Below, piece after piece: positions 728-38,609 of a stretch of 50,668 bases of DNA. Made by a program: the position numbers and the translations under genes. Every line of letters begins with the position of its first letter. Position 1 is the stretch's first letter. The stretch is taken from positions 1 to 50,668 of the IMG/VR virus record IMGVR_UViG_3300042691_045797; one strand, written 5' to 3'. The notes under the pieces are model-generated. The model saw only the letters and a list, made by a program, of their open reading frames with translations. It did not search any database and had not been told where the DNA came from. Origin of the DNA: a virus.

Positions 728-1264
728 ATGCCGGCAACAGTCAAGATTGGAAGTAATAATTATAGTGGACAAACAGCAGTAATTACATTTTTGCCTAATA
801 CAGGAGGAACTGTAAATGTTGGCTCACAGGTTATACCATATGACTACTCCACAGATTACTTTTACGGTACATATGAATTAGATTTTACAGGATTTAATTA
901 TACCTGTTCCTTCTCAATTATTTCAGGACAAACTTTACCTGTATTTACTCCACCAACACCAGGTCCAATTACTTACACATTTGACGCCCCATATCAGCAA
1001 GACCCTGAGGTCATGCCAAATCAAACTTTATCAGGAACAAGTTTATCGGCACTTACAACAAATATATTAATCGAACCAAACTTTGCCGGAACTTTTGATG
1101 GTGGTATTTCTCAGTTTAGAATGTATGTTGAGCCATTAAACGCGGCTGAAATAGTACATAACTTTGATATTTTAAAATCCAAGTTTCAGATGTTTGACCC
1201 AAGATGTCCTAATTGTGCTACGGGTGGAACCATAAATGATATTGTAGTTGAAGAAATACCATGA
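728..1264 (+). CDS. Small fibre-type structural protein with shared N-terminal anchor module
   Basis: 178 aa. Residues 1-65 are a beta-rich module (NYSGQ, ITFLPNTGGT, IPYDYSTDYFYGTY, FNYTCSFSI) that recurs at the start of the proteins beginning at 6926 and 13124 and, more diverged, at 1261. The C-terminal part (residues about 115-170: FDGGISQFRMY, LNAAEIVHNF, FDPRCPNC) looks like the closing strands of a LamG/concanavalin-like jelly roll, as found at the ends of phage adhesins, but the domain is too short to be whole. It has no Pro/Thr linker. The stop overlaps the next start as ATGA (1261-1264), so the two are probably translated together. Likely a virion adhesin subunit or a shortened paralogue of the large fibres; the exact role is unknown. 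Confidence 0.6.
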   Translation: MPATVKIGSNNYSGQTAVITFLPNTGGTVNVGSQVIPYDYSTDYFYGTYELDFTGFNYTCSFSIISGQTLPVFTPPTPGPITYTFDAPYQQDPEVMPNQTLSGTSLSALTTNILIEPNFAGTFDGGISQFRMYVEPLNAAEIVHNFDILKSKFQMFDPRCPNCATGGTINDIVVEEIP

Positions 1265-6925: not shown

Positions 6926-9900
6926 ATGCCAGAAGTAGTTCTAATATCATCCGAAAATTTTGACGGTCAGTTAGCTTTAGTAACATTTTATCCGTGTACT
7001 GGAGGTACTATAACAATAGGTTATGTTACAATACCATATAACTATGAAGCCGATTATATCTATGGAACTTATACTTTATATTTTGAGGAATATAATGAAA
7101 CTTGTGAATTTTCCATACCTTGTCCATCCCCGACCCCTACACCAACAAATACAATTACACCAACTAAAACAAGGTCTAATGTAACTCAAACACCTACACC
7201 AACCAAAACATCCACCCCAACACCAACATCCGTTTGTTTTTGTTACAATTATAGAAATACGGACAGTCAAAAAGATGGAAAAATAGAATATTATAACTGT
7301 TCAGGTCAATTTACACAAACATCAGTAGACCCTAACGACACTTTACCTTTATGTGTTTCATTGACGGGTACCCAATCATCATTTGTGGTTGTTAGTTTGT
7401 TAGGTCCTTGTAATGGAGGAAGTTGCACAACCCCAACCCCAACTCCTACAAATACTGCGACCCCTACAAGAACTCCTACCTTGACACCAACTAATACCCC
7501 AACCGATACACCTCCCAAAACTCCAAAACCGACGAGGACTCCGACACCAACAATGACCCCAACAAGAGTTCCAAATATTAATAGATGCCACGTTTTTTAT
7601 GTAACAAGAAGTAATCAAGTATATGTTTATAATCCCGAGAACTTCCAATCAATAAATTTAACATCATTCTTTTTGGATGAAAGTCTTGTTGGTTATAGTT
7701 TGGATATTGCACACACTGAAGACACACTTTGGTTGTTAGGACTCGGTTCAATACAAGAGTGGGTTATTACATTAAATCCATTTTCGGCTCAATTCTCAAG
7801 ATATATTACAATACCTTATCCTAACAACGGGGACGGACTTGCGGTAATTGATAGTGGTACTTTAATATTACCAAGAAATACAGACATTCCAAACCAACCT
7901 AATCAAATAATAAAATTAGACATAACTAGTTCTGATAACATTGGTAATCCTCAAATTATAATCTTCTTACCATTAGGTAGAACAGTTTCAGGAGATATTT
8001 CTTATAATAATGATGGTAGATTATTAATTACAAATGGAGACATCAATGGTAATACATTCATAACACAATACGATTATAGTACACTACTGCCCGAGGTTGA
8101 AATAAATATATCCAATTCGGTTGATTCTCCGGCTGGGTTATATTCGCACAATAACAGTATCTATGTTGTAAATTATAATAATGTAGGACAGTCGTATCAA
8201 ATGAATACAATTTACCCCTACAATATTTCTTTTTCAAATAATATAAATCCTAGAATAAAAGGAACATCTCAATTAACTGAATGTTTCAGAAATACTTTTA
8301 GATTAATACCTCAACTATCACAAACGCCAACACCTACAATTACCCCAACTAAAACAACAACTCCTACAAAAACTCCTACAAACACCAATACCCCAACAGT
8401 AACTCCAACTAAATGTTGTAATACTTGGAATCCATACGGTGGAGGTAGTTTAGTCACGGGTACAACATTTTTAGTAAGCTATTGTGATGGCTCATCAGGA
8501 ACTATATACATCCCACCAATAACACAATATTCTCAAATATATGGTACAAATCTTTGTGCATTCACTGTAGTTGTATTGAATGGATTTGGTAATAATGGAG
8601 GTTCATTAGGTTGTAATTGTGTTGGGCCAACGCCAACACCAACACCTACTATGACAAATACACCAACAAGACAAAGGGAATGTTTAGATTGTGATTTGAC
8701 GGGTACAGGATTTACTACAAATCAAAGTTGTGAGGTTTTATTAAGAGCAGAATCTGCAATTTATAAATATGATTTCTATTCACCAAACACTTCAGTACAA
8801 CTCAATATACCTAATTTATCTGTTTCGGCGGCAGATTTAACTCATACTAATAATAAATTATTTGCTCAACATAGTTTTGTAGGTGGTGGATTTACTAGTA
8901 TAAGAGTTTGGGACATAGTTATACCATCATTTAATGCAAATTACCTTCAAGATATTGAGTTAGATTTTTCAATAGGATTTGGTATTTTTGCATTGAATAA
9001 CACTACATTGGTTGTCACCACAGGCTCAACTCAATCGTGTTTTATTGAAATTGACATTACTGACCCATCAAATATTACAACAACTTTTAAATTCTGTTTG
9101 GGTGAAAATAGAAAAGTTTCAAACGGTTCCAATTTCTTAATTAATGATAATAACAAATTGATTGTTTCAAACACACTGAACGACACTCCTGATTATTATT
9201 ATATTACACAATATAATTATTTAACGGGTGACCTCGAAACGGATGCATTGGTTGCGGTACAACCAAACATTAGTATTAATAGATTTATAATTTTAGAAAA
9301 TTCAAGTCAGATTATAATTGGTAAAGGGGACCTTTATACAATACCTCTTAATGACCCATATTCTCCTTTGACTTTTTACGGAAATCCAAACTTTACACTT
9401 GGCCCTGAAATTTATGGAGCGTCCCAAAGATATAACGTTGGTTGTTTACCTGTAGAATTTATACAACCACAACCTTCGCCAACACCAACTCCAACTAATA
9501 CAATGACTCCAACAATAACACAGACACCAACCCAAACTTGTGCAAGACCTGAAGGGTTAACGAATTTATCAATGGTAATTGGATACACAAGTTTTAGAAC
9601 AGACCCACCTACACCATATTCTTGGTTGTTTCAGACTAATGCTAATATAGTTTGTGAATTATTTAATGGTTTAGTTGTGGATACCCAAGGAGGTAATCCT
9701 TTACCTTCCATTGCATCTGCTACATACAAAATTATACTTAACGATGCTTGGACTAGTGGTAATCCCGTAGGTGAGAGAGTTTATGCTCTTACAGGTACAG
9801 ACTGTCAATGTGTAAATGTTGGAAATTTCTACGGTCTTTACACACCAGTAGACCCAAGTGCTAGTCTTCAAAATGCAAACCCTTTAAATATTTTAAACAA

Positions 9901-10906
9901 TGAATTTGTAATTATAAAAATTCTAAATTGTATTGTAGTTGAAGCAGTACCATGTTCTTTCCCTACACTGATGATAATAGATGAAATTACGGACCCACTT
10001 GGTAATAAAATTAGAGGTGTAATCGATGAAAACGTAAATCAAAATTTATATATATTCACAAGTGCAAGTACCAGAGTTTTAAATTCTGAAACAAAGGAAG
10101 AGGTAACAGAATTTGCGTCAGTCGCTTTAGGTGGAGGTCTTGGTGTTGATTTTACCCAAACAAGATTTATAGAAAGTACTCAAAAAATTTATGTAGGACA
10201 ATCAGATGTGAATACTGTTTATTCAATAGATATAAACAATTACGGAGTTTACGAAATTCAAATAAGTGGAGATTCTTTTGGAATGGCGGCAGACCAAAAT
10301 AATAATTTAATTGCGGTTTCATCAACATATGTAGAAGATGGAATTTCAATTATAGACTCCGCATCCGATATTGTAACTTATAATTTAAATAATGTTGATT
10401 GTTATAAGGGTGGAATTACATCATTAAATAATGGTTTCTGCTACGTTGTAGGTTCAGGCACAAAGGCGACAAAAATTGATATTTTAAGTGGAATAACGGC
10501 TAGTACTTTAAATATAACATACGACGCCGCATTTAAACGTGTTGCTTTCAATACAAATAGCAATCTTATTTATATTTTAACACAATTTATTAGCGTCCAA
10601 GTTTGGGATATTGATAATAATACAAAGGTTACAGAAATAGATATACAAGGATATAGTGGCTCTACATCTAATTACGCTTCTAATTTGGAATACAACCCTG
10701 ATAAAGATTATATGTATGTTTCGGTTGTTAATTCCGATACATTAGTATTTGGTATCATAACAATAGATTGTCAAACAAATACAATTATTGATTTTACAGA
10801 TAATATTTACAGTGGTAGTGAAGAGGTATTTATGCATTATAGTAATATTAAATCAGTACTATATGTAGGATTTAACACTGACTCAGTTTACGTACTATCA
10901 ACATAA
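6926..10906 (+). CDS. Modular fibre/adhesin with Pro/Thr linkers and C-terminal beta-propeller
   Basis: 1326 aa. Approximate order: anchor module 1-65 (FDGQLALVTFYPCTGGT, IPYNYEADYIYGTY), close to that at 728; linker; Cys mini-domain 103-166 (CFCYNY, YYNCSG); linker; propeller-like domain 222-460; linker; Cys mini-domain 497-565 (CCNTWNPYGGG); linker; propeller-like domain 590-850; linker; beta-rich Cys domain 872-1015; C-terminal 1016-1326 with repeated strands ending in NLYIFTS, KIYVGQS, NLIYILT and DYMYVSV, like YVTN-type beta-propellers. No signal peptide or membrane segment. Probably a tail fibre or virion adhesin. The C-terminal propeller differs from those of the neighbours and may be the receptor-binding tip (inference). 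Confidence 0.65.
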   Translation: MPEVVLISSENFDGQLALVTFYPCTGGTITIGYVTIPYNYEADYIYGTYTLYFEEYNETCEFSIPCPSPTPTPTNTITPTKTRSNVTQTPTPTKTSTPTPTSVCFCYNYRNTDSQKDGKIEYYNCSGQFTQTSVDPNDTLPLCVSLTGTQSSFVVVSLLGPCNGGSCTTPTPTPTNTATPTRTPTLTPTNTPTDTPPKTPKPTRTPTPTMTPTRVPNINRCHVFYVTRSNQVYVYNPENFQSINLTSFFLDESLVGYSLDIAHTEDTLWLLGLGSIQEWVITLNPFSAQFSRYITIPYPNNGDGLAVIDSGTLILPRNTDIPNQPNQIIKLDITSSDNIGNPQIIIFLPLGRTVSGDISYNNDGRLLITNGDINGNTFITQYDYSTLLPEVEINISNSVDSPAGLYSHNNSIYVVNYNNVGQSYQMNTIYPYNISFSNNINPRIKGTSQLTECFRNTFRLIPQLSQTPTPTITPTKTTTPTKTPTNTNTPTVTPTKCCNTWNPYGGGSLVTGTTFLVSYCDGSSGTIYIPPITQYSQIYGTNLCAFTVVVLNGFGNNGGSLGCNCVGPTPTPTPTMTNTPTRQRECLDCDLTGTGFTTNQSCEVLLRAESAIYKYDFYSPNTSVQLNIPNLSVSAADLTHTNNKLFAQHSFVGGGFTSIRVWDIVIPSFNANYLQDIELDFSIGFGIFALNNTTLVVTTGSTQSCFIEIDITDPSNITTTFKFCLGENRKVSNGSNFLINDNNKLIVSNTLNDTPDYYYITQYNYLTGDLETDALVAVQPNISINRFIILENSSQIIIGKGDLYTIPLNDPYSPLTFYGNPNFTLGPEIYGASQRYNVGCLPVEFIQPQPSPTPTPTNTMTPTITQTPTQTCARPEGLTNLSMVIGYTSFRTDPPTPYSWLFQTNANIVCELFNGLVVDTQGGNPLPSIASATYKIILNDAWTSGNPVGERVYALTGTDCQCVNVGNFYGLYTPVDPSASLQNANPLNILNNEFVIIKILNCIVVEAVPCSFPTLMIIDEITDPLGNKIRGVIDENVNQNLYIFTSASTRVLNSETKEEVTEFASVALGGGLGVDFTQTRFIESTQKIYVGQSDVNTVYSIDINNYGVYEIQISGDSFGMAADQNNNLIAVSSTYVEDGISIIDSASDIVTYNLNNVDCYKGGITSLNNGFCYVVGSGTKATKIDILSGITASTLNITYDAAFKRVAFNTNSNLIYILTQFISVQVWDIDNNTKVTEIDIQGYSGSTSNYASNLEYNPDKDYMYVSVVNSDTLVFGIITIDCQTNTIIDFTDNIYSGSEEVFMHYSNIKSVLYVGFNTDSVYVLST
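7124..7229 (+). repeat. Pro/Thr linker in the 6926-10906 protein (first)
   Basis: Begins directly after the anchor module: SPTPTPTNTITPTKT, then QTPTPTKTSTPTPTS. It joins the anchor to the first Cys mini-domain. Confidence 0.76.
7427..7570 (+). repeat. Pro/Thr linker in the 6926-10906 protein (second)
   Basis: About 48 residues with Arg and Lys among the Thr/Pro units (PTRTPTLTPTNT, PPKTPKPTRTPT), making it the most basic of the linkers. Confidence 0.76.
8321..8413 (+). repeat. Pro/Thr linker in the 6926-10906 protein (third)
   Basis: PTPTITPTKTTTPTKTPTNT-type linker between a propeller-like domain and the CC-starting mini-domain. Confidence 0.75.
8629..8672 (+). repeat. Pro/Thr linker in the 6926-10906 protein (fourth)
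   Basis: Short TPTPTPTMTNTPT linker between the Cys mini-domain and the second propeller-like domain. Confidence 0.7.
9475..9537 (+). repeat. Pro/Thr linker in the 6926-10906 protein (fifth)
   Basis: SPTPTPTNTMTPTITQTPTQ linker before the C-terminal Cys domain and propeller. Confidence 0.72.
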
Positions 10907-13123: not shown

Positions 13124-16100
13124 ATGGCTAAGGTACTTCAAATATTATCTTCAAATTATAGTGGAGAAAGTGTTAATATTACATTTAATCCTCTGATTGG
13201 GAGTCAACAATTTTTTGAAAATGTAACCTTACCATATAATTTTATTAATGAGACTTTTGACGGAAACTACACTTTATTCTTTCCTGATTACAATTTAACT
13301 CACAAATTCCAAATACCCACAGTTGAACCTGTTAACACTAAATGTAGATGTACTGAATTTTCGTATAATTCTTTCTTAGGAGGCACATCAAAGATTACTT
13401 ATAGAGATTGTTCAGGTGCCTTGAGAAAGCTGACATTACAGAATAGACAAAGTTTTACAGAATGTGTTAGGTTGAATGAATATACTGCAAACACACCTAA
13501 TACTTTAGTTACTACCTATGGATTTTGTAATTCATTTAATGACTGTATTACTTTAACACAACCCCCAACCCCAACCCCAACTAAGACCCCAACCCCAACT
13601 TTGTCATTAACGCCAACCAATACAAATACACCAAGTGTGACAAAAACCCCCACAAACACAGTAACACCAACAAACACTCAAACTCAAACGATAACCCCAA
13701 CGTATACACAAACACCAACAAACACTCAAACTGTCACTAAAACCACTACAACAACTCCAACAACAACTCCAACAACAACTCAATATACTAATTGTTTATC
13801 ATTAGCCTTAACTACAAATCCATCAGGATGGAATGATTATGAAATTAATGATTTGTCATCGGGTGTTTATTTATACAACACACAAACAAACACAGTAATT
13901 AGTGCTATTACGTTAAATGGGTTTGATACTAATTTAATCACACGTAATACAGTAGGTCAGTCAAGTGCATATAGTCAACAAAGTGGTAGTACTGGATTGG
14001 CACACTATTATGACACAAATACCCAAACAGGTATGATGTGGATTAAAAACTTTAATAATAAATTGTATGAGTTTACTTTAGGTGTCAATTATGAAGCAAC
14101 TTTAGTAGATACCTACGATTGTCCTGGAGACAGATTGGCTCTTAAAAACTTCACGACTTTAATTACCATTACAGGTAATACAAACAATGCTCAAGTTATA
14201 GAAATTGACATATCTGGCCCCTCACCAGTACTAATACCTAAATTTCAAATTCCGTTTACATTATTTACACAAGGATTTTATGCGGGAAATGGAGGATTGA
14301 TTTATAATACTCAAGGAAAATTAATATTCTTAATGCCATACCAAGCGGCAGGAGCAATCGCGCAATTTGATTATGAAACCGGAGAATTAGAGTATTTCTC
14401 TGGTCAATTAGGAGGTACAAATCCTGGCGGTGGATTTATAGGGTACCCCGGAGCAATATGGACATATAACGGTACTTTAAATGCAATTCACACTCACGGT
14501 AGAATGGTGTTTACACCTCAAGATAGTTACTTGTATTTATCAGGTGTTTATTATGGATGTACAAATCAAGGTGGTTCAGTAAATATATGGGGGGCAGGAT
14601 GTCCTCCATTGTCAGTAGCATCACCACCAGCTGACGGTAATTTTATTATTGCCGTCTCAAATGACAATATGAACTGTAACGACGTAAGTATACCTCCTAA
14701 TAATTTACCGACCCCAACATCAACACCAACTGTGACACAAACTCCAACACAAACAATAACTCCAACAAGTTTATGTAGGTGTACAACAATAACAAACTTA
14801 TCAAGTTCATCCAATACAATAACATATCAATATTGCGGTTACATCCAATCAGAACCAGTATTAGTGGGAAGAACTTTAAATCCTAATGAAGTAATTAGAG
14901 ATTGTATAATAAACGAAACGGTTGTTGGTGATAATATATTAGTCTCATACGACGGCGGAATTTGTCAACAAGTTGGAGGATTAAGGGTTTGTCCTGAATT
15001 ACCATTAAGTCCAACACCTACGGTAACAAATACTCAAACTCCGACACCTACAAAAACTTTTGATGATGGACAAAATATTATATTGGTTTCAGGACGTAAG
15101 ACTTTTCCTGATTTAACATCTCAAAGTGGTATTTTTAAATACAATTATTTATCCAATGAAATGTCATATCTTGGTATAGTTGGTTCATTCGCAGGAGTTT
15201 CCCATACATATGATTTCTCAACAAATACGGGTAAAATATGGTTATCTAATGGAGGAACGATATTCGAATATAACATATTAAATTCTAACTTAGAAAACGA
15301 ATTAAATAGGATTATAACTTTAACTGGTAGTGGATATGGTCGTAATTTAACATTTAAAAATGAAACTACACTTATAAAAACAATACTTGTAAATGGAGAA
15401 AGATGGGTTGCGGAAATTGATATTACGGAATTAAATATTAATCCTATAACCACTCTTAAATTTAGAATTACGAATACCAATTCGAATGACGACACAGTAC
15501 TTACTGATTTAATGTACACAAATACCGAAAGATTTATATGGACCAATGGAGTTGGTGTTGTTACTTTACAGCAGTATAATTATGGAACAGGAGAATTAGA
15601 ATTTGACTCTGTGGTTTCTCTACAACCGGCAAGTTTATTACAAAGAGAAGGTGAAATTATTTCAATACAGACAGCGCCAGTGAGAGTTTCTTACAATTTA
15701 ACTACTGCAGATGACACGATAATTTGTCCAAATATAATATGTGGACCAACAATAGGACCAAGCGAACTACCGTTTTGTACGACTAATAATTGTAACAATT
15801 ATGATTTTATGTCTTATGGAGCATCTTCATTGTTAATGAACAATAACTCTCACTTTGTACCAAACCAAGTTTGCCCAATTATAGATGATTTTACAGTTTC
15901 ACAAGATTTTGATACAGTAATGGTTCAAAATAATACGGAATATGATTTGAACGTTTTTACAAAAACGAGTACCGCTTTAATTGGTACTGTATTATCAGGT
16001 CAAGTGGGACAATTCCCATCATCAAGTTTTGAGGAGTCAATTGTTGGAGTAGTTCCAACTAATTTAGAATATTTCAGTACTTGTAGAGTATGTAAAGATG

Positions 16101-17236
16101 TGTTTAATACTTTTGTTGATTGCGAGACCGGATGTGGGTCGTTAGATGGATTACAGATGTCAAAAACAAATACTGGAGAATCTTTGATAGTTGTAAATAA
16201 CAGCACATCTTCTCTATTATTTTATGATTCCGTTAGCTCAATTCAACAACTTTTCGAGGTGGAAGCCAATACAGGAACTTATACGTCCCCATCTTCTAAT
16301 TTTCAATACGGTATTATAGTGATAGGTGTAACTAAAATTGATGGGACAGTATGTAAAACATGTTTTAGATTAGATAATCTATCAGAAATTCCTTGTGATT
16401 TCACAACACCTTCTATTTTATTATCAGGAATTCTTACACAGAATAATTCTACATTATCAAATGGGGTTTATAAATATGATTTTTTATCTAATACTGTAAC
16501 TCATTTAAATATATTAGGTAATCAATTAACAGGTTTGGCCCATTATTATAACAATAATTCAAATACTGGTTTTATTTGGACTAAAAGAAGTACTGAAGCG
16601 AAAATAAAAGAATATCTTATTTTAAATTCAAATTACGATAATCAATTAAATAGGGAAATTATTTTAACAGGAACAAATTATGGAACATCATTAACATATA
16701 TTAATAACACTACTTTAGTAACAACAAAAAAAATAGGTAACGAACAGTGGATTGTTGAAATTAACATAGACCCTTCTTTACCAAATCCTATTGATACTTT
16801 AAAGTTTCAAATTTCTTTTGGGAACTCTGACATTGATGGAGACCTAATGTATACAAATACAGGGAAACTTATAATGTCTAGTCAAAACGGTAATTATAAA
16901 ATTATGGAACAGTATGTTTACTCGACCGGATATAGAGAATTTGTAACAACAATTTGTTGTGGACCTGTCGCCTTGTGGCAATTTTATGGGGGCATATATT
17001 CATCACAAAGTGGGGCGGGACAGATAGTAAGATATGATTTAGTTGGAGACCCAGAAATGGTATTTTTATTACCCACAGACTCCAACTTTGTTCGCCCACC
17101 AATTCAATGCGGGGTAAATTTAGGTGAACCTCTAAATGCACCCGATAGTAGTACATGTCAATTTTCATTTTTATCAAATGCGGGCTCCTCACTTTTGATT
17201 GATAACAACACAGAATTTGTACCAAATCTGTTTTAA
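13124..17236 (+). CDS. Modular fibre/adhesin with Pro/Thr linkers, apparently cut short at the C-terminus
   Basis: 1370 aa. Approximate order: anchor module 1-65 (NYSGESVNITFNPL, LPYNFINETFDGNY); Cys mini-domain 72-142 (CRCTEF, YRDCSG); long linker 145-222; propeller-like domain 223-525; linker; second Cys mini-domain 551-626 (CRCTTI); linker; second propeller-like domain 648-885; bridge with DFMSYGASSLLMNNN; DCETGC module about 920-1097; third propeller-like domain 1098-1340; then a second bridge copy (SNAGSSLLIDNNTEFVPN) after which the protein stops two residues later. In the first copy the bridge leads into a DCETGC module, so the second copy looks truncated. No signal peptide. Probably a tail fibre that shares and exchanges modules with 1261-6864 and 6926-10906. 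Confidence 0.64.
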   Translation: MAKVLQILSSNYSGESVNITFNPLIGSQQFFENVTLPYNFINETFDGNYTLFFPDYNLTHKFQIPTVEPVNTKCRCTEFSYNSFLGGTSKITYRDCSGALRKLTLQNRQSFTECVRLNEYTANTPNTLVTTYGFCNSFNDCITLTQPPTPTPTKTPTPTLSLTPTNTNTPSVTKTPTNTVTPTNTQTQTITPTYTQTPTNTQTVTKTTTTTPTTTPTTTQYTNCLSLALTTNPSGWNDYEINDLSSGVYLYNTQTNTVISAITLNGFDTNLITRNTVGQSSAYSQQSGSTGLAHYYDTNTQTGMMWIKNFNNKLYEFTLGVNYEATLVDTYDCPGDRLALKNFTTLITITGNTNNAQVIEIDISGPSPVLIPKFQIPFTLFTQGFYAGNGGLIYNTQGKLIFLMPYQAAGAIAQFDYETGELEYFSGQLGGTNPGGGFIGYPGAIWTYNGTLNAIHTHGRMVFTPQDSYLYLSGVYYGCTNQGGSVNIWGAGCPPLSVASPPADGNFIIAVSNDNMNCNDVSIPPNNLPTPTSTPTVTQTPTQTITPTSLCRCTTITNLSSSSNTITYQYCGYIQSEPVLVGRTLNPNEVIRDCIINETVVGDNILVSYDGGICQQVGGLRVCPELPLSPTPTVTNTQTPTPTKTFDDGQNIILVSGRKTFPDLTSQSGIFKYNYLSNEMSYLGIVGSFAGVSHTYDFSTNTGKIWLSNGGTIFEYNILNSNLENELNRIITLTGSGYGRNLTFKNETTLIKTILVNGERWVAEIDITELNINPITTLKFRITNTNSNDDTVLTDLMYTNTERFIWTNGVGVVTLQQYNYGTGELEFDSVVSLQPASLLQREGEIISIQTAPVRVSYNLTTADDTIICPNIICGPTIGPSELPFCTTNNCNNYDFMSYGASSLLMNNNSHFVPNQVCPIIDDFTVSQDFDTVMVQNNTEYDLNVFTKTSTALIGTVLSGQVGQFPSSSFEESIVGVVPTNLEYFSTCRVCKDVFNTFVDCETGCGSLDGLQMSKTNTGESLIVVNNSTSSLLFYDSVSSIQQLFEVEANTGTYTSPSSNFQYGIIVIGVTKIDGTVCKTCFRLDNLSEIPCDFTTPSILLSGILTQNNSTLSNGVYKYDFLSNTVTHLNILGNQLTGLAHYYNNNSNTGFIWTKRSTEAKIKEYLILNSNYDNQLNREIILTGTNYGTSLTYINNTTLVTTKKIGNEQWIVEINIDPSLPNPIDTLKFQISFGNSDIDGDLMYTNTGKLIMSSQNGNYKIMEQYVYSTGYREFVTTICCGPVALWQFYGGIYSSQSGAGQIVRYDLVGDPEMVFLLPTDSNFVRPPIQCGVNLGEPLNAPDSSTCQFSFLSNAGSSLLIDNNTEFVPNLF
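13562..13783 (+). repeat. Pro/Thr linker in the 13124-17236 protein (first, long)
   Basis: About 74 residues running from PPTPTPTKTPTPT to KTTTTTPTTTPTTTQ. The end is nearly pure Thr with single Pro, and at DNA level the unit CCAACAACAACT repeats there. Confidence 0.8.
14704..14772 (+). repeat. Pro/Thr linker in the 13124-17236 protein (second)
   Basis: LPTPTSTPTVTQTPTQTITP-type linker before the second Cys mini-domain. Confidence 0.72.
15010..15060 (+). repeat. Pro/Thr linker in the 13124-17236 protein (third)
   Basis: SPTPTVTNTQTPTPTKT linker before the second propeller-like domain. Confidence 0.7.
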
Positions 17237-17303: not shown

Positions 17304-18551
17304 ATGAAAATTTTTATTCAAGTTGCCTCTTACAGAGACCCACAATTAGTTCCGACAGTAGAGTCGGCATTAGAAAACGCAAAACATCCCGAAAATTTAG
17401 TATTTGGTATTGCAAGACAATATCATCCTGATGATAAATTTGATGATTTATCTAAGTACGAAGGTGATGAAAGATTTAGAGTTTTAAACATTTTGTATTC
17501 TGATGCAAAGGGTGCTTGCTGGGCAAGAAACCAAATTCAACAAGTTTACAAAGATGAAGAATATACGCTTCAGATTGACTCTCACATGAGATTCGAAAAG
17601 GATTGGGATATTGAAATGATTAAAATGATTACAGACTTACAAGAAAAAGGATATAAAAAGCCCTTGTTAACAGGATATGTGTCATCATTTGACCCTGATA
17701 ACGACCCAGCAGCAAGAGTTAGAGACCCATGGAGAATGGTGTTTGATAGATTTATACCTGAAGGTGCCGTATTCTTTTTACCTGAGACAATACCAGGTTG
17801 GCAAGATTTGACTGAACCAGTAACTGCAAGATTTTATTCAGCTCACTATTGCTTTACTTTAGGTCAATTTGCAAAAGAAGTACAACACGACCCCGATTAC
17901 TATTTCCACGGAGAAGAAATCTCAATCGCGGCAAGAGCTTACACTTGGGGATATGATTTATTCCACCCTCACAAGGTTCTTATTTGGCATGAATATACTC
18001 GCAAAGGAAGAACAAAACAGTGGGACGATGATAAACAATGGGTAGATAAAAATAACTATAGTCATAAAAAGAATAGGGCTTTATTTGGAATGGACGGCGA
18101 GGAGCCAATGGACCATGGAATCTTTGGGTTTGGTCCTGAAAGAAGTCTAAGAGATTATGAAAAATACTCAGGATTACTTTTTTCAAAAAGAGCAATTCAA
18201 CAAGAAACAATTGATAAAAAATATCCTCCAAACACATATAACTATGAAACAGAAGAAGAATGGATGAATTCATTCGCTTCAATTTTTAAACATTGTATTG
18301 ATATTGGGTACACTCAAGTACCTGAGGATGATTACGAATTTTGGGCGGTAGCATTCCATGATGAAAATGATGAAACAATATTTAGAAAAGATGCCGACCC
18401 AAATGAGATTAGAGGTATGAAAAATGACCCAGATGGGTATTGCAAAGTTTGGAGGGAATTCCAAACAACGATTAAACCAAAATATTGGGTTGTATGGCCA
18501 TTCTCCAAATCAAAGGGTTGGGGTGAAAGAATAACTGGAAATTTATATTAA
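17304..18551 (+). CDS. GT60-family polypeptide GlcNAc-transferase (Skp1 Gnt1-like)
   Basis: 415 aa. The first 235 residues match the GT60 / Pfam GlcNAc family: an opening FIQVASYRDPQLVPT, then FRVLNILYSDAKGACWARN (residues 58-76), the metal-binding LQIDSHMRF (D92-S93-H94 as the DxD-like motif), ARFYSAHY at 175-182, YFHGEEIS at 200-207 and DLFHPHK...WHEYTR at 218-233. Known GT60 enzymes transfer alpha-GlcNAc from UDP-GlcNAc to hydroxyproline of cytoplasmic Skp1 (Dictyostelium Gnt1) or to Thr of mucins (trypanosomes). The remaining 170 residues form an extra C-terminal domain (DDYEFWAVAFHDEND, KPKYWVVWPF) I do not recognise. It follows the Pro/Thr-rich fibre genes directly and heads the glycosyltransferase cluster, so the fibres are the likely acceptor (inference). 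No membrane segment or signal peptide. Confidence 0.82.
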   Translation: MKIFIQVASYRDPQLVPTVESALENAKHPENLVFGIARQYHPDDKFDDLSKYEGDERFRVLNILYSDAKGACWARNQIQQVYKDEEYTLQIDSHMRFEKDWDIEMIKMITDLQEKGYKKPLLTGYVSSFDPDNDPAARVRDPWRMVFDRFIPEGAVFFLPETIPGWQDLTEPVTARFYSAHYCFTLGQFAKEVQHDPDYYFHGEEISIAARAYTWGYDLFHPHKVLIWHEYTRKGRTKQWDDDKQWVDKNNYSHKKNRALFGMDGEEPMDHGIFGFGPERSLRDYEKYSGLLFSKRAIQQETIDKKYPPNTYNYETEEEWMNSFASIFKHCIDIGYTQVPEDDYEFWAVAFHDENDETIFRKDADPNEIRGMKNDPDGYCKVWREFQTTIKPKYWVVWPFSKSKGWGERITGNLY

Positions 18552-18556
18552 AATTT

Positions 18557-20836
18557 ATGTCAAAATTTGCAATTGCCACTTTTGCTTATAGTGAAAGATA
18601 CCAAAAACAAGTAAACAGGATGATTTCAGAAATAGACTCCTGTGATTTAAAACCAACAGTTGTTGTTGTAACTGATAATGTTGATAATATCTTGGATAGA
18701 CCATTTGTTAAAAAGTACGACATTTCCCAATTTAATCCTGAGTATAAAAACTATTCGAATAGTTATTATACTTTTGATTTTTCTGTGAAAAGGTATTCTT
18801 TGTTAGCTGCCCTAAATTTAGGATATACAAAAATTATTTTGTCTGATGCCGATGCCGTACCGAACAAACCATTATTCACCGAAGATTATATTATGAAGGG
18901 ATTCGTCCCAAATTCAGTACAAGGACAAGTTACTTATAATTTTTCGAAAGAAATTATGACAAGCAGTGAGCTTGGAAAAAGGTTTTTATCATATGAAAAA
19001 TATTTTAATGTTTCTTATGACAAGAATGAACTAAACTTTATGCCTGAGGATTGTATACAATTTTTGGATATTGAAATGCCGAAATTTTATAATTTTTTAA
19101 GAGTATGGGATGAATGTATAAAATTCAAAAACTCTGAAAAATTGTCCAACGCTCCTGCTGGTAATATAGATGAAATGTGTTTTGCAGCATTACATTGTGG
19201 TTTGTCAGTTGGTAATAATTCAGGTAAGTGTATGAATGCTCTAACACCCATTCACGATAAGTGGTATGACTCGGCATTTGCTCCACAACCAGTTGTAGAA
19301 GTTAGTAAAAATGAAAGGAAAAAAACAATTGTTTCGTCGGTCTATGAATTAAATTACATTCAAGACAGAGGAGGAGCTGTTTATAAAGGATTTCATCTTT
19401 TAACTGAAACAATAAGGTCGATTATTTTCAAAGAATACGATTATGTTATATATACGGACAAAGTTACATATGACAAACACAATTTAAAAGAAGTCTTTGA
19501 TTATCCAAATGTTGAATTGAGATTAAGGGAGCTAAATGGCGACTTTTATACAAATTATTTGGAACCAATTAGACTGAAGAAAAATGAACAAGGTGAAATA
19601 TATGATAGAATTTTTTGTGTAAAAAATTACGTAGAGGTAATGTATAACAAATTGGATTATCTTGTTGAGGTGGCAAATGAAAAAGATAGTGATGTTTGTT
19701 GGGTTGATGCTGGTCTATTTGGAACTAGTTGCCACAACGGATGGAGGGACCACCTAAAAAATCACATTGTTCACGGTAAAAATTTTGTTGATAAAATATT
19801 TGAAAAAATTAATAAAGAAGATTTTATTGCTCTAAAGGGTGAACACATTTTAATAAACTATGAAGTAAAAGATAAAATAAGATTTTCTTTCGGTGACCAT
19901 CCGTTTATAGTACCAGGTGGTTTATTTGGGGGTAAAAAAGAAAAAACAATAGAATATTTGACCAACTATAAAGATAAGGTAAAAGAAATAGTTGATTGTT
20001 TAGGTGAATATACTTCAGACCAAGAATTGATGTGTCTTTTGTTACAAAACAAAAAATGTAAGTTTTATGAATTTAATGACTGGGATGATTTACAGAGAGG
20101 AATTTTAAAAATGATGGATTTGTATGATGAAGAAACTTATCAAACAGGTACTTTTATACCAAAAAATAACACTGGTGAACCTATAAAAGTTTATGGTGCG
20201 GTTGTGATAGAAGAAAGTAATTTTTTTGAGGAAGAGGAAACTGAAATGAATTTTCCGATGACAGATAGAGAAATTTTAGAGAAAATATCAAAAGTTTCAA
20301 ATAATAAACTTAATTCCTTGGACTTGACTCACAACAACTATATGATAGATAAAATGTCAAGTTTTGCCTTATATTACCATTATCCTTCAGGTAAAGAACA
20401 TTACAGATTGTTAACTTATATATCTAAGTTATATAACGGTGATTTTATTTTAGATATTGGAACCGATAATGGATGTTCTGCAATAGCATTATCCGATAAC
20501 GAAAAAAACACTGTTAAGACATTTGATGTTGTAAATCGAAAAGAACCAAATGTAATTACAAAAGATAATATAAAGTTTTTCTTAGATGATATTTTCAAAT
20601 ACGAAGAGGTTTTAAAAGAAAGTAGATTCATTATGGTTGATACTAATAATGATGGAGTTTTTGAAAGAAAAATTTATGATAAATTGAAAGATATAAATTA
20701 TAAGGGATTGGTACTTATAGATGATATACACTTAAATTCTGAGATGAAAAGATTTTGGGAGTCGGTCCCCGATGAAAAGTTCGATTTAACAATAAAAGGT
20801 CATAGTACTGGAACAGGAATAATAATTTTTGAATAG
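18557..20836 (+). CDS. Three-domain glycosyltransferase / HtrL-WlaTC-like / methyltransferase fusion
   Basis: 759 aa. Residues 1-250: a GT-A-like nucleotide-sugar domain opening FAIATFAYSERY, with the DxD-type motif LSDADAVPNKP (about 94-104). Residues 255-540: resembles the HtrL/YibB-WlaTC family of putative glycosyltransferases, with IVSSVYEL, CWVDAGLFG, PGGLFGGKKE and a SDQELMCLLL helix. Residues 565-759: a class I SAM-dependent methyltransferase with motif I FILDIGTDNGCS (about 629-640) and an acidic LVLIDDIH strand. It starts 5 bases after the GT60 gene. One protein may add one or two sugars and methylate them. The middle family's reaction is poorly known, so donor and acceptor cannot be stated. 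A similar but rearranged fusion lies at 28220-30574. Confidence 0.65.
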   Translation: MSKFAIATFAYSERYQKQVNRMISEIDSCDLKPTVVVVTDNVDNILDRPFVKKYDISQFNPEYKNYSNSYYTFDFSVKRYSLLAALNLGYTKIILSDADAVPNKPLFTEDYIMKGFVPNSVQGQVTYNFSKEIMTSSELGKRFLSYEKYFNVSYDKNELNFMPEDCIQFLDIEMPKFYNFLRVWDECIKFKNSEKLSNAPAGNIDEMCFAALHCGLSVGNNSGKCMNALTPIHDKWYDSAFAPQPVVEVSKNERKKTIVSSVYELNYIQDRGGAVYKGFHLLTETIRSIIFKEYDYVIYTDKVTYDKHNLKEVFDYPNVELRLRELNGDFYTNYLEPIRLKKNEQGEIYDRIFCVKNYVEVMYNKLDYLVEVANEKDSDVCWVDAGLFGTSCHNGWRDHLKNHIVHGKNFVDKIFEKINKEDFIALKGEHILINYEVKDKIRFSFGDHPFIVPGGLFGGKKEKTIEYLTNYKDKVKEIVDCLGEYTSDQELMCLLLQNKKCKFYEFNDWDDLQRGILKMMDLYDEETYQTGTFIPKNNTGEPIKVYGAVVIEESNFFEEEETEMNFPMTDREILEKISKVSNNKLNSLDLTHNNYMIDKMSSFALYYHYPSGKEHYRLLTYISKLYNGDFILDIGTDNGCSAIALSDNEKNTVKTFDVVNRKEPNVITKDNIKFFLDDIFKYEEVLKESRFIMVDTNNDGVFERKIYDKLKDINYKGLVLIDDIHLNSEMKRFWESVPDEKFDLTIKGHSTGTGIIIFE

Positions 20837-20837
20837 G

Positions 20838-21533
20838 ATGAAATACCCAATTGTGATTATGAATTTTAATTTGCTAACGTGGCCTAAGCAAATGATTGAA
20901 AACTTAAAAAAATTTGACGACGTTGGGGACATCATAATATTTGATAACTGCTCAACTTACCAACCGCTCTTAGATTGGTATTCAACTAATCCGTGTGAAA
21001 TAGTTTATTCAGACTATAATAGGGGCCATTGTGGTCCTTGGGATTTTGGACTAATAGATAAACTAAATTCTGAATTTTATGTTGTGACGGACCCTGACAT
21101 GGGATTAGACGAAACACCAACGGATAGTTTAAATTTTTTAAAAGAAAAATTATCCTCTCATAAAGAATTTGACAGAATAGGTCTGTCAATAATTGATTAT
21201 GCGGACCCAATACCTAATGTACCTCATTATGGTCTTATGAGACATTTATATCATGAATTTTATGACCCGACAAAAAAAGAAGATGGGTTGTTAAAGGGAC
21301 ATATAGTTGATACCACTTTTGCAATGTACAATATCAATAGACACAAATCTGGACCATCATGTGCAACAGATTTCCCATATAGTGTGAGACATTTACCTTG
21401 GGCGATTACTGAGGCTCAACTTAATAATTTAAAAGAGTATAATTATGAATTTTTTTATTATCTTAAAACCGCAGAATATTCTTCATCGTATAAAAAATAT
21501 GTAAATTTTGATAACCGATTTAATAATGAATAA
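20838..21533 (+). CDS. GT-A (GT2-like) glycosyltransferase
   Basis: 231 aa from ATG 20838, one base after the previous stop; a TTG at 20829 would overlap that gene and is less likely. The N-terminus (YPIVIMNFNLLTWPKQMI) and IIIFDNCSTYQPLLDWY resemble GT2-type enzymes that begin with a nucleotide-binding strand and an NxST turn. The metal motif is VVTDPDMGLDETP (DPD). Further conserved blocks are GLLKGHIVDTTFAMY and SGPSCATDFPYSVRHLPW. The protein at 22410-23099 is a close paralogue with the same blocks. It overlaps the next start by 8 bases. Sugar donor unknown. Confidence 0.7.
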   Translation: MKYPIVIMNFNLLTWPKQMIENLKKFDDVGDIIIFDNCSTYQPLLDWYSTNPCEIVYSDYNRGHCGPWDFGLIDKLNSEFYVVTDPDMGLDETPTDSLNFLKEKLSSHKEFDRIGLSIIDYADPIPNVPHYGLMRHLYHEFYDPTKKEDGLLKGHIVDTTFAMYNINRHKSGPSCATDFPYSVRHLPWAITEAQLNNLKEYNYEFFYYLKTAEYSSSYKKYVNFDNRFNNE

Positions 21534-22409: not shown

Positions 22410-23099
22410 ATGAAAATACCAATAATAATAAATAATTGTAACCTGCTAGAATGGCCAAAAAAAATGATTGAGGATATCTCAACTTTTGAGGGGGTTGGTG
22501 AAATTATAATTCTCGATAATGGCTCAACTTATGAACCTCTTTTAGAATGGTATGAAACAAAACCTTGTGAAATAATAAAATCAGAAATAAATTACGGTCA
22601 ATATGGTCCGTGGCAAAAAAATATTCCACAGAGCCTTGGGAGTGACTATTACGTGGTTACTGACCCTGACTTGGGATTGGGGGAGACCCCAAAAGATTGT
22701 TTATTGGTATTAAAAGAAAAACTCGACAAATATAAAGAATTTGACAGAATAGGTTTATCTTTATCAAATATTATAAATAGAGTTTACGACACCCCTTATT
22801 ATTATTGGTTAGAACACATATCTCATGAATTTTGGAATTTGGAAAAATTAGAGGATGGGTTGTTAAAGGGTCACATAGTTGACACAACTTTTGCATTATA
22901 TCATAAAAATAGAAATAAATCAGGCCCAAGTTGCGCAACTAACTTTCCCTATAGTGCTAGACATTTACCATGGGAGTTTAGTAACCAAGAAATAAATAAT
23001 CTAAAAGATATAAATTATGAATTTTATTATTATCTAAAAAATGCAAATTATGCTTGTTCTTTTAAAAGATTTGTAGATTTTGATAATAGGTGTTGTTAA
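22410..23099 (+). CDS. GT-A (GT2-like) glycosyltransferase, paralogue of 20838-21533
   Basis: 229 aa. Shares with 20838-21533 the order NFNLL/NNCNLLEWPK, IIILDNGSTYEPLLEWYETKPCEI, the DPD metal motif (VVTDPDLGLGETP), EFDRIGLSL, GLLKGHIVDTTFALY, SGPSCATNFPYSARHLPW and a C-terminal YEFYYYLKNA block. The two are separated by one gene, which suggests tandem duplication with an intervening insertion, or duplication of a larger unit. They may add the same sugar in different positions, or have diverged in donor choice; this cannot be told from sequence. Confidence 0.7.
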   Translation: MKIPIIINNCNLLEWPKKMIEDISTFEGVGEIIILDNGSTYEPLLEWYETKPCEIIKSEINYGQYGPWQKNIPQSLGSDYYVVTDPDLGLGETPKDCLLVLKEKLDKYKEFDRIGLSLSNIINRVYDTPYYYWLEHISHEFWNLEKLEDGLLKGHIVDTTFALYHKNRNKSGPSCATNFPYSARHLPWEFSNQEINNLKDINYEFYYYLKNANYACSFKRFVDFDNRCC

Positions 23100-24490: not shown

Positions 24491-24621
24491 ACGTAATAAT
24501 TTCAGTTTTATCTTTAGATAAAAATCCATATAATAAACTTGAGGACTCCATAAGGGAAACTTGGTATAATTTAAACGAACCTAAAGTTAAAATTTTTTTT
24601 TATTACGGTAACCATGATTGA
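24487..24621 (+). pseudogene. 44-aa remnant of a glycosyltransferase N-terminus (GT31-like), or a small ORF
   Basis: An ATG that overlaps the previous stop opens a frame of 44 codons ending in TGA at 24619-24621. It reads MNVIISVLSLDKNPYNK, then LEDSIRETWYN and KVKIFFYYGNHD. SIRETW resembles the conserved RxxIRxTW start of galactosyltransferase-type (GT31) enzymes, where a long catalytic domain should follow. Here the frame stops just after the second beta strand, and the next gene starts 8 bases inside it. It is best read as the broken head of a glycosyltransferase, though it may still be translated through coupling. Confidence 0.5.
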
Positions 24622-25372
24622 TTTCATAACAGGTAATAAATTTAAAAGTTTATGTCATTATTCTTTTGATGAATTAGGTTTTGTAAAACATAGAGAGCCC
24701 AAAGATGAAGTTTTAAAAATTTTTGTTAAAATAGATTTGGTAGGTAATTTTTTCGAAATGTGGGGCGACCAAAAATTTATTTTAGTTACACATAATGGGG
24801 ACACGGAGGTAAATTTAAATTTTTTAAAATATATAGAAAACCCGAACTTAATTCAATGGTATGCTCAAAACGTTAATATTTATCACCCAAAATTAAAATC
24901 AATACCTATTGGTATTGCAAATGAAATTTGGGAACATGGAAATGAAAAAGTATTTTTAGAAGTTATAGAAAAAAATCATCAAAAAGAAACAATGATTTAT
25001 GCAAATTTTGATGTTAATACTAATTTATTCGAAAGAACTAAATGTGCCAGAGAAATTAAAAAAAATGGTATTGAATTGTCTAGCAGAAAACCTTTTAAAT
25101 CATTTTTGGAGGAAATATCCAAAAGCCACTTTGTAGTTTCGCCAAACGGTAATGGGATTGATTGTCATAAGATTTGGGAATCACTTTACCTAAAATCAAT
25201 ACCTATAGTAACTAACTCAATTAATATAAAATTTTACGATGATTTACCTATTTATATTATAGATGATTGGTCTAATTTTAAAGTAGAAGATTTTAATGTT
25301 GATACTTATAAAAAAATATGGAACAATTTTAAAATAGAGAAACTTAACATTTCTAAATTCATAGATAAATGA
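24614..25372 (+). CDS. Exostosin-like (GT47-type) putative glycosyltransferase
   Basis: 252 aa. The C-terminal half has SHFVVSPNGNGIDCHKIWESLYLKSIPIV split over residues about 170-200, the layout of exostosin/GT47-like and related GT-B enzymes, in which a strand, a Gly loop and an ExL helix bind the nucleotide-sugar. The N-terminal half (NFFEMWGDQKFILVTHNGD, IQWYAQN, LKSIPIGIANEIW) fits the acceptor lobe. It overlaps the broken frame upstream by 8 bases and the next gene by 4 (ATGA). Donor unknown. Confidence 0.6.
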   Translation: MIDFITGNKFKSLCHYSFDELGFVKHREPKDEVLKIFVKIDLVGNFFEMWGDQKFILVTHNGDTEVNLNFLKYIENPNLIQWYAQNVNIYHPKLKSIPIGIANEIWEHGNEKVFLEVIEKNHQKETMIYANFDVNTNLFERTKCAREIKKNGIELSSRKPFKSFLEEISKSHFVVSPNGNGIDCHKIWESLYLKSIPIVTNSINIKFYDDLPIYIIDDWSNFKVEDFNVDTYKKIWNNFKIEKLNISKFIDK

Positions 25373-25962
25373 AAAATTTCATACAAATAGGAGCTAGCGA
25401 AGGAATGGACTATTTCCAAAATTTAGTCCAAAGTATTAATGAAAGAGTAAGAGTAATTCTTATTGAACCTAACAAAAAATCTATACCAATATTGAAAAAA
25501 AATTATGAAAATTTATTAAAAAAACATGAAATAATTTTTTTAGAGTTAGCAATAGTGCCATTTAAAGACGAAGATTTTATTAATCTATATCATGATGAGG
25601 ATAATTTAGTACAATCCCTATCTTCTCTAATTAAAAGAAATTCACATAATCTACCTGATGTTATGGTAGTTTCGTGTTCTACTTTAAATGAACTTTTTGA
25701 AAATATGAAAATATTTGAAGTTGATGAAATTTGCATTGACACTGAAGGTTTAGATTATGAAATATTACTATCATTGGATTTAGATAAAGTAAAAATAAAA
25801 AAAATTGTTTGCGAAATATGGCCATATGACCAAGATGATTTTAACAAAAAATTTAGAACTGGTCCGCATTTACTTCCTCAATTAAAAGTAAAATTTAAAA
25901 ATTATGATTTTAGTGAAATTTTTGTTGACGGAATGCTTTCTTTAAAATTAGAAAAAAAATAA
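25369..25962 (+). CDS. FkbM-family SAM-dependent methyltransferase (first)
   Basis: 197 aa. Motif I is NFIQIGASEGMDYF, the acidic end of strand 2 is VILIEPNKK, and VDEICIDTEGLDYEIL is the DxxGxE-type block typical of FkbM methyltransferases. These often O-methylate sugars in glycan and antibiotic pathways. It starts in an ATGA overlap with the exostosin-like gene, so the two are translationally coupled. Its neighbour downstream is a second FkbM gene with different spacing, so they probably methylate different positions (inference). Confidence 0.7.
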   Translation: MKNFIQIGASEGMDYFQNLVQSINERVRVILIEPNKKSIPILKKNYENLLKKHEIIFLELAIVPFKDEDFINLYHDEDNLVQSLSSLIKRNSHNLPDVMVVSCSTLNELFENMKIFEVDEICIDTEGLDYEILLSLDLDKVKIKKIVCEIWPYDQDDFNKKFRTGPHLLPQLKVKFKNYDFSEIFVDGMLSLKLEKK

Positions 25963-25968
25963 AAAATT

Positions 25969-26583
25969 ATGATTATAGATTTAGAAAATTTGGTAAGTAA
26001 GTATGATTTAAAAATAAATGGTATTTTACATATAGGGGCTCATTATGGCGGTGAAATAGAAACTTATGAAAAATTAGGAATAAGTAATTTAATTTTTTTC
26101 GAACCCTCCCCTGAAACCTTTAAAATTTTACAGGAAAGGGTAGGTACTAGAGCTATTTTAAAAAATATTGCTTTAGGTAATACTATAGGTGAAATTGAAA
26201 TGAACGTTGAGACCGCTAATTTAGGAGCCTCTAATTCAATATTAAAACCTAAACTACACTTAGCACAATATCCATACATTACTTTTGATAAAAAAATTAA
26301 AGTTGGGATAGATAAATTAGATTCATTTTTAAATGTAAAAGATAAATTTAATTTTATAAATATAGATGTACAAGGATATGAACTAGAAGTTTTTAAAGGA
26401 GGTAACGAATATCTTAATCATATTGATTATATAATGACCGAAGTTAATAGAGATGAGTTATATGAAAATTGTGTTCAGATTGAAGAATTAGATAACTATT
26501 TGGGGACATATGGATTTGAGCGAGTTGAAACCTCTTGGTGGGATGGAGGTAATTGGGGGGACGCATTCTATATAAAAAAGTAA
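25969..26583 (+). CDS. FkbM-family SAM-dependent methyltransferase (second)
   Basis: 204 aa. Shows GILHIGAHYGGEIETYEKLG (motif I), LIFFEPSPETFKIL, KNIALGNTIGEIEMNV and FNFINIDVQGYELEVFKG, the full FkbM pattern, followed by the family's usual ending (GDAFYIKK). It is a clearer match than the preceding gene. Its probable job is O-methylation of a sugar or a small acceptor in the cluster's glycan. Start ATG lies 6 bases after the preceding stop, in an A-rich leader. Confidence 0.78.
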   Translation: MIIDLENLVSKYDLKINGILHIGAHYGGEIETYEKLGISNLIFFEPSPETFKILQERVGTRAILKNIALGNTIGEIEMNVETANLGASNSILKPKLHLAQYPYITFDKKIKVGIDKLDSFLNVKDKFNFINIDVQGYELEVFKGGNEYLNHIDYIMTEVNRDELYENCVQIEELDNYLGTYGFERVETSWWDGGNWGDAFYIKK

Positions 26584-27443: not shown

Positions 27444-28178
27444 ATGGTTTCAGTAAGATTTGAAGGTAGACTTGGTAATAATTTAATTCAATATTTGGTG
27501 GCTAAATTATTTGCAAATAAAAATAATTTATTTTTAAAATTAGAGCCACACATAGAAAATTTACCTTGTATAAAAAAATTAAATAACATTGGTAATAATT
27601 TTGAAAAAAATGAAGTAATTCAGATAAATGACAATAACTTTATAGATTTTTTTAGAGAAAAAAAAATAGGAGAATTTCATTACAGATTCGACGGGTTTTT
27701 TCAAAAAAAAGAATTTTTTTATGAGTATGGAAACGAAATAAAAAAATTACTTAACTACGAAATAGACCAAATAGATGAAACTGATTTTTTTATTCACTAC
27801 AGAATAGGAGATAATGACGGCTCTAATAGAATGTTACCTTTAGAGTATTATATAGAGGGTATAGAAAAATTCGGTCTAGGTAAAGGTTTTATAAGTACTG
27901 ATAGTATAGGTCATCCTAATTGTAATTATTTAATAGAGAAATATAATCTCACTCCTATAAATTTATCTGATATACAAACAATTCTTTACGGCAAAAACTT
28001 TAAAAATTTAATTTTATCTGAAGGTACTTTTTCATGGTGGATAGCCTTTTTAAGTGAATCAAAAAATATTTTTTGTAATAAAAGAGAATTCAAATGGCAT
28101 GGAGATATTTTTTTTGATGAGTGGAACTATACATCTTGGGAATATATTAAAGAAGAAAGTAAGTGGAAAAAATTGTAA
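27444..28178 (+). CDS. GT11-like alpha-1,2-fucosyltransferase
   Basis: 244 aa. Shows the GT11 landmarks in order: an N-terminal FEGRLGNNLIQYLVAKLFA (usual form GGLGNQLFQYA), FFIHYRIGDN with H118-R120-G122-D123 (the HxRxGD donor-binding motif), and a C-terminal LILSEGTFSWWIAFL at about 189-203 (usual form S-x-STFSWWxAxL). It is somewhat shorter than the typical 280-300 aa. GT11 enzymes transfer fucose from GDP-fucose, usually to galactose. Which sugar it fucosylates here is unknown, and no GDP-fucose synthesis gene is in the window, so the donor would come from the host or another part of the genome. Confidence 0.75.
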   Translation: MVSVRFEGRLGNNLIQYLVAKLFANKNNLFLKLEPHIENLPCIKKLNNIGNNFEKNEVIQINDNNFIDFFREKKIGEFHYRFDGFFQKKEFFYEYGNEIKKLLNYEIDQIDETDFFIHYRIGDNDGSNRMLPLEYYIEGIEKFGLGKGFISTDSIGHPNCNYLIEKYNLTPINLSDIQTILYGKNFKNLILSEGTFSWWIAFLSESKNIFCNKREFKWHGDIFFDEWNYTSWEYIKEESKWKKL

Positions 28179-30598: not shown

Positions 30599-30959
30599 TT
30601 TCATTACACAGAATTCTACTTTACCTATTTTAAAAATGGAACTTGATTACAATGGTAAATCTTCGGTCGAGGAATTTAACGACTTAATTGAGAATTCTAC
30701 TATATTATTTTCTATGGTTGAGGTGGAAAACGGTAATTTTAAAATAGTGAACAAAAAAGGTGGATTTACAAATAAAATATTCCAAGAACCAAATGCCAAA
30801 ACAGAATATTATTTGTATTACCCATTTAGTTTATTTGACACAAACAAAAAAGGTAGATATGAAGGGTTGTTTACTTTAATTTCAGAGGATGGCACATCCA
30901 TATTACCCATAAAAGAAAAATTATATATAAACGTCGTTGAAAATCATATAAGGGTATAA
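30591..30959 (+). CDS. Small BppU-N-like baseplate/fibre anchor protein
   Basis: 122 aa. It is a stand-alone copy of the N-terminal domain of the next protein: both begin MEF, then S/NSTLPILKME, a middle KGRYEGLFTLISEDGTSILP block and a final KEKLYINVV. The layout (QNSTLP at the start, YxFSLxDT, G-R-x-E, P-x-KEKxYxN) resembles the N-terminal domain of phage baseplate upper proteins (BppU_N family), which plug receptor-binding proteins into the baseplate. It shares a single base with the next start (TAATG). It may cap or space the same attachment site that the larger protein uses (inference). No other domain is present. Confidence 0.55.
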   Translation: MEFFITQNSTLPILKMELDYNGKSSVEEFNDLIENSTILFSMVEVENGNFKIVNKKGGFTNKIFQEPNAKTEYYLYYPFSLFDTNKKGRYEGLFTLISEDGTSILPIKEKLYINVVENHIRV

Positions 30960-38605: not shown

Positions 38606-38609
38606 CAAT

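Follow-up and report, generated by a model that had tools for sequence, protein, structure and literature searches.

A Tailed-Phage GT60 Glycosyltransferase Encoded beside Thr-Pro Array Proteins: a Predicted Mucin-Type O-Glycosylation Module

The window analyzed here is the whole 50,668-base IMG/VR virus fragment, in which a GT60 glycosyltransferase gene lies among genes for long proteins with Thr-Pro (TP) arrays, further putative glycosyltransferases (GTs), and methyltransferases. The same record encodes a tail sheath, a gp19-like tail tube, a family B DNA polymerase, and an SNF2 helicase, and the source was therefore assigned to the tailed phages. The sheath (42250-45447, plus strand; 1065 aa) is unusually long, with about its last quarter alone aligning with most known phage sheaths. 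An Fe/Mn superoxide dismutase is encoded at 37904-38608 on the minus strand (PF02777, E=1.5e-40). The GT60 gene has the following features:

17304..18551, plus strand: GT60 glycosyltransferase (PF11397), predicted polypeptide O-glycosylation initiator (Pfam, PHROG, AlphaFold, Foldseek)
17577..17585, plus strand: DSH metal-binding (DxH) motif, residues 92-94 (conservation; end of strand 87-92)
17910..17918, plus strand: GEE catalytic (xED-type) motif, residues 203-205 (conservation; start of helix 204-214)
17988..17990, plus strand: His229 of WHEYTR, predicted C-terminal metal ligand (C-His; invariant; end of strand 227-229)
18177..18548, plus strand: C-terminal accessory domain, residues 292-415, mainly strands (pLDDT 93 when modelled alone)

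The open reading frame (ORF) starts with ATG and encodes 415 aa without an internal stop. Its product matched PF11397 (“GlcNAc”) with 224.9 bits (E=2.6e-66; curated cut-off, 21) and, over its full length, PHROG 24687 (“glycosyltransferase”; E=9.8e-171). The original prediction had named a phage-encoded GT60 enzyme and proposed an HMM search as a check; the very strong Pfam match and the tailed-phage genes on the same record bear it out on both counts. No NCBIfam family was found for the protein, and PDB sequence searches, whether started from the protein or from its profile, returned no match, so fold comparison was used.

The motifs first read by eye, DSH, YFHGEEIS, and WHEYTR, were all recovered (residues 92-94, 200-207, and 228-233), with DxH in place of DxD. 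Across 47 aligned phage and bacterial homologues, no substitution occurs at D92, H94, E205, or H229, and conservation at S93, G203, and E204 is 90% or higher. The AlphaFold model (input alignment with two rows from named phage records left out) reached a mean pLDDT of 93.2 and a pTM of 0.83. Judged by secondary structure and conservation, it puts DSH, GEE, and H229 where DxD/DxH, xED, and C-His would be expected in a GT-A enzyme, and the predicted placement of DSH and GEE in the active site thus held. Foldseek against the PDB ranked ppGalNAc-transferases, which initiate the O-glycosylation of mucins, at all of positions 1 to 42 (best E=3.7e-11, with a TMq of only about 0.5), a GT-A fold near GT27. 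GT60 and GT27 have been placed in a common clade whose members have DxH and O-glycosylate Ser/Thr (PMC7185993).

The match to the Pfam domain stops at residue 291, so the additional C-terminal domain that had been noticed exists but comprises about 125 residues rather than 170. Searched alone against PDB folds, it gave no significant match (best E=0.065). It is not phage specific: it occurs in GT60s of Bacteroidota, Gemmatimonadota, Acidobacteriota, and Alphaproteobacteria and is carried by most of the bacterial GT60s sampled, and it is absent from shorter ones (e.g., Cupriavidus L105 and several actinobacteria). It is an accessory domain and no phage invention.

The Pro/Thr-rich neighbors of the GT60 gene, which came last in the earlier observation but are its important part, were also substantiated. 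The ORFs concerned are as follows:

728..1264, plus strand: short protein with the common 64-aa N-terminal domain (phrog_8510 “virion structural protein,” E=3.9e-5, weak)
1261..6864, plus strand: TP-array modular protein, 1867 aa, six arrays (arrays, shuffle test)
6926..10906, plus strand: TP-array modular protein, 1326 aa (arrays, shuffle test)
13124..17236, plus strand: TP-array modular protein, 1370 aa, arrays at aa 143-220, 530-550, and 629-648
30959..33535, plus strand: TP-array modular protein, 858 aa, 20.9% Thr (arrays, shuffle test)

In the four long ORFs, modules alternate with TPTPTNT-type arrays, and 200 residue shuffles of each produced no 60-residue array window. The stop of 13124..17236 lies 67 bp upstream of GT60, and the products of 728-1264, 6926-10906, and 13124-17236 have their first 64 aa in common. 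This shared domain, including that of 728-1264, together with weak PHROG matches and gene order, makes a virion location of the array proteins likely.

Downstream of GT60, the window encodes a series of further enzymes:

18557..20836, plus strand: 759-aa protein, probably with glycosyltransferase and methyltransferase domains (read by eye; no confident Pfam family)
20829..21533, plus strand: small GT-like protein
22410..23099, plus strand: small GT2-like protein (PF00535, E=0.008, below cut-off)
24614..25372, plus strand: RXYLT1_C/exostosin-like putative glycosyltransferase (PF24785, E=2.2e-6, barely above cut-off)
25369..25962, plus strand: FkbM-type methyltransferase (PF05050, E=8.5e-11)
25969..26583, plus strand: FkbM-type methyltransferase (PF05050, E=2.6e-16)
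27444..28178, plus strand: GT11-like putative glycosyltransferase (PF01531, E=5.5e-4, below cut-off; phrog_2644 glycosyltransferase, E=1.5e-7)
28220..30574, plus strand: methyltransferase, HtrL_YibB, and C-terminal GT fusion, predicted elongating enzyme (PF09612, E=1.4e-21)

The two small GT-like genes are a recent duplication (59% identity). Relatives of 18557..20836 were found in 55/83 phage GT60 loci and in 4 bacterial ones.

The linkage of GT60 to TP arrays was examined in 80 loci kept from 174 GT60 stretches in an IMG/VR scan, with one fixed array definition for GT60 and random loci. Because TP repeats might be common in phages generally, we used as controls 80 viral loci drawn by an arbitrary 14-mer, and polymerase-matched relatives. 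Arrays were present in 71/80 phage GT60 loci (10.1 per 100 kb) and in 0/80 random loci (705 kb), which were shorter than the GT60 loci. The phage loci are related and raw counts therefore overstate independence; after dereplication at 85% identity, arrays remained in 18/23 GT60 loci versus 0/80 random loci, with the nearest array ORF at most 200 bp from GT60 in 8 of the 23. In the reverse direction, PF11397 was detected in 12/80 records picked by TPTPTPT and in 0/50 random records (Fisher p=0.003). TP arrays are not confined to phages with GT60: 27/38 array-bearing records of the pattern scan, many of them short fragments, were without detected PF11397. Among polymerase-matched relatives, GT60 was present in 24/39, including all five contigs of >200 kb, and is thus nearly core there, leaving few GT60-negative controls. 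By gene linkage, then, the enzyme is coupled to candidate acceptors with dense P/T/S repeats, as in a mucin system.

GT60 is also common in bacteria by sequence search, and a TP-repeat protein lies beside it in several phyla. Exported-looking P/T/S-repeat proteins were found near GT60 in Jiulongibacter, Saprospiraceae, another Bacteroidia metagenome-assembled genome (MAG), Vicinamibacterales, and a Mycobacteriaceae MAG, and in five loci (L085, L086, L091, L102, and L124) the TP-repeat proteins start, as read by eye, with twin-arginine-like signals; we conjecture that such proteins could be glycosylated in the cytosol and then exported by Tat. All whole-genome TPTPTPT matches of Jiulongibacter, L086, and L094 lie beside GT60, a count that is uninformative for high-GC genomes; the L094 contig may in fact belong to a phage and have been binned with bacterial sequences. 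Two GT60-like genes occur in each of nine loci (L088, L091, L109, L117, L121, L123, L124, L132, and L135), some of them, in L132 and L135, inside ORFs of >1000 aa.

T6SS-type genes accompany GT60 in 43/80 bacterial loci (tblastn, with Pfam confirmation on examples). In Burkholderiales GT60 loci, 13/13 VgrG proteins have a P-S/T-repeat tail at the C terminus (L101, L107, L109, L110, L112, L113, L115, L116, L119, L120, L122, L125, and L131); the tails are of the types TPTPTP, PPPSETPPPSE, TPDE, and STPEP and vary in sequence and length. In six such genomes, GT60 is present at the T6SS locus only, and the tail was found in 6/6 GT60-linked VgrGs versus 0/19 complete unlinked VgrG matches (exact p of about 6e-6 if independent). 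A VgrG from the same subfamily (L520, 67-69% identical) is among the tail-less unlinked copies. Enterobacterales T6SS GT60 loci (e.g., L134) have a fimbrial-like protein beside GT60, and no TP array was found in them.

A phylogeny with bacterial, giant-virus, and protist members had been proposed; our GT60 tree (quick method, midpoint root) was built from phage and bacterial sequences, and in it the phage GT60s fall among bacterial ones. The window lineage stands beside Saprospiraceae and other environmental sequences, and the GT60s of phages XacN1 and RAS14 cluster with sequences from Burkholderiaceae and Neisseriaceae (SH-aLRT, 97). The two phage groups are separate, which means that GT60 entered phages at least twice; HtrL-GT and nearby P/T-rich ORFs occur in both. 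Since GT60 is common in bacteria and the phage genes sit among bacterial ones in the tree, the label “eukaryote-like” would mislead.

The main conserved partner of GT60 is the HtrL-GT fusion, the predicted elongating enzyme. An HtrL_YibB domain lies near GT60 in 80/83 phage loci, 11 bacterial loci, and 0/80 random loci, and an HtrL-fused GT domain in 78/83, 10, and 0/80, respectively. Among 50,697 phage records searched with tblastn, GT60 was found in three isolates (XacN1, RAS14, and CM1), in each at full length, and full-length HtrL-GT in only the same three. Saprospiraceae, Gemmatimonadota, and other bacteria have the HtrL-GT gene directly beside GT60; a Vicinamibacterales MAG carries GT60 and HtrL domains within one ORF (L102:7956-10109). 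GT60, a carbamoyltransferase, and FkbM plus HtrL follow one another in Jiulongibacter, and an annotated carbamoyl transferase adjoins GT60 in XacN1. HtrL_YibB has also been listed near a GT in the annotation of an F1 mycobacteriophage (PMC10453261).

We regard it as probable that these genes form a phage-borne module for mucin-type O-glycosylation, with GT60 attaching the first HexNAc to Ser/Thr residues of dedicated acceptors. The enzyme would transfer an alpha-linked HexNAc (GlcNAc or GalNAc, from a UDP sugar) onto Ser/Thr in the Thr-Pro arrays of the long proteins that the phage itself encodes next to GT60 and that are probably exposed on the virion surface. Extension and capping of the glycan would then fall to the HtrL_YibB-GT fusion and to the variable GT and FkbM genes nearby, joined in some relatives by a carbamoyltransferase gene, and the glycosylated arrays may serve as extended shielded stalks, in camouflage, or in protease resistance.

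Four other explanations were weighed. Remodeling of O-antigen or capsule on the host surface, in the course of infection or for superinfection exclusion, with the TP proteins as unrelated neighbors, would suit the several further GT-like and methyltransferase genes of the cluster and the uncharacterized HtrL_YibB family, otherwise reported from LOS/LPS loci (PMC4172580); we consider it improbable, as it accounts neither for the linkage of TP arrays in independent lineages of phages and bacteria nor for the pattern of VgrG tails. Slightly less probable is a Gnt1/Skp1-like route, in which GT60 would add GlcNAc to hydroxyproline in the proline-rich TP arrays after a prolyl hydroxylase. The family does include the Skp1 hydroxyproline GlcNAc-transferase (PMC6939170), but no 2OG-Fe(II) oxygenase was found among the window proteins scanned, and no PF13640 oxygenase in seven large phage records (five phage contigs of >200 kb, XacN1, and RAS14), which makes this route unlikely.

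Modification of phage DNA to hypermodified, glycosylated bases is a more doubtful explanation still. DNA glycosylation is given as a common role of phage GTs in PMC12619734, and a beta-glucosyl-HMC-alpha-glucosyltransferase PHROG shows weak similarity (E=3.4e-4) to the C-terminal GT of 28220-30574. Against this, the nearest folds of GT60 are polypeptide transferases, and the same module sits on bacterial chromosomes, with exported TP proteins and T6SS clusters, where no phage DNA is made. Least probable of all is that the pairing reflects shared ancestry and gene order in one phage lineage, with the arrays as plain flexible linkers: the phage sample is dominated by the window lineage and some array contigs are without detected GT60, but the same GT60-array pairing recurs in separate phage acquisitions and several bacterial phyla and withstands the VgrG paralogue control.

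Mucin-type glycosylation of P/T-rich proteins is usually regarded as eukaryotic. Here, GT60 is repeatedly encoded beside likely acceptors in phages and bacteria, VgrG spikes included, and the same enzyme-acceptor pairing in phages and bacterial secretion machines suggests self-made mucin-like coats. If the mucin-type module is real, phages and bacteria build their own mucins, with a bearing on the shielding of phage particles, the tuning of VgrG spikes, and the source of the protist enzymes. More tentatively, and with less than even confidence, we propose that GT60 and HtrL-GT may constitute a widespread mobile prokaryotic mucin-type system, with the P-S/T repeats of contractile machines (phage virions and VgrG spikes) and Tat-exported surface proteins as acceptors, and that protist GT60 pathways may descend from bacterial or viral stock.

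The GT60 family, phage GTs, and the annotation of XacN1 ORF334 as a glycosyltransferase were already known. A literature search of partial coverage, without preprints, returned no paper naming GT60 in phages and none tying GT60 to P/T-rich proteins, HtrL, or T6SS.

Several known systems invite comparison. The eukaryotic GT60 of Heise et al. 2009 (as cited in PMC6939170) belongs to the same CAZy family, has DxH, and is implicated in the start of mucin-type O-glycosylation; it works in the secretory pathway, whereas the window GT60 is a phage gene of predicted activity beside putative acceptors, with an HtrL-GT partner. Skp1 Gnt1 of Dictyostelium and Toxoplasma, also a GT60, is cytosolic and is followed by the two-domain PgtA, which recalls HtrL-GT; its acceptor, however, is a hydroxyproline of Skp1, whereas no PF13640 hydroxylase was found in the seven large phage records, and PgtA is GT2/GT74, not HtrL. 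The ppGalNAc-transferases (GT27) are the top fold matches, have DxH, and use polypeptide Ser/Thr acceptors in P/T-rich mucins, but they are another sequence family, and their C-terminal domain is a ricin-type lectin in place of the unrelated strand-rich domain of the window GT60.

Among phages, the closest case is the jumbo phage XacN1, for which proteomics found at least two glycoproteins, reported as virion proteins, and whose authors suspected its two GTs (PMC5852040). One of these, ORF334, is an orthologue of the window GT60 (48.6% identity over 99% of the window protein); in the available part of the paper it has no GT60 label and no tie to P/T-rich proteins or HtrL. In mycobacteriophages (Freeman et al. 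2023, as cited in PMC12619734), phage-encoded GTs coat virion proteins with glycans; the sites described there are the C termini of capsid and tail tube proteins, whereas the candidate sites in the window phage are the TP arrays.
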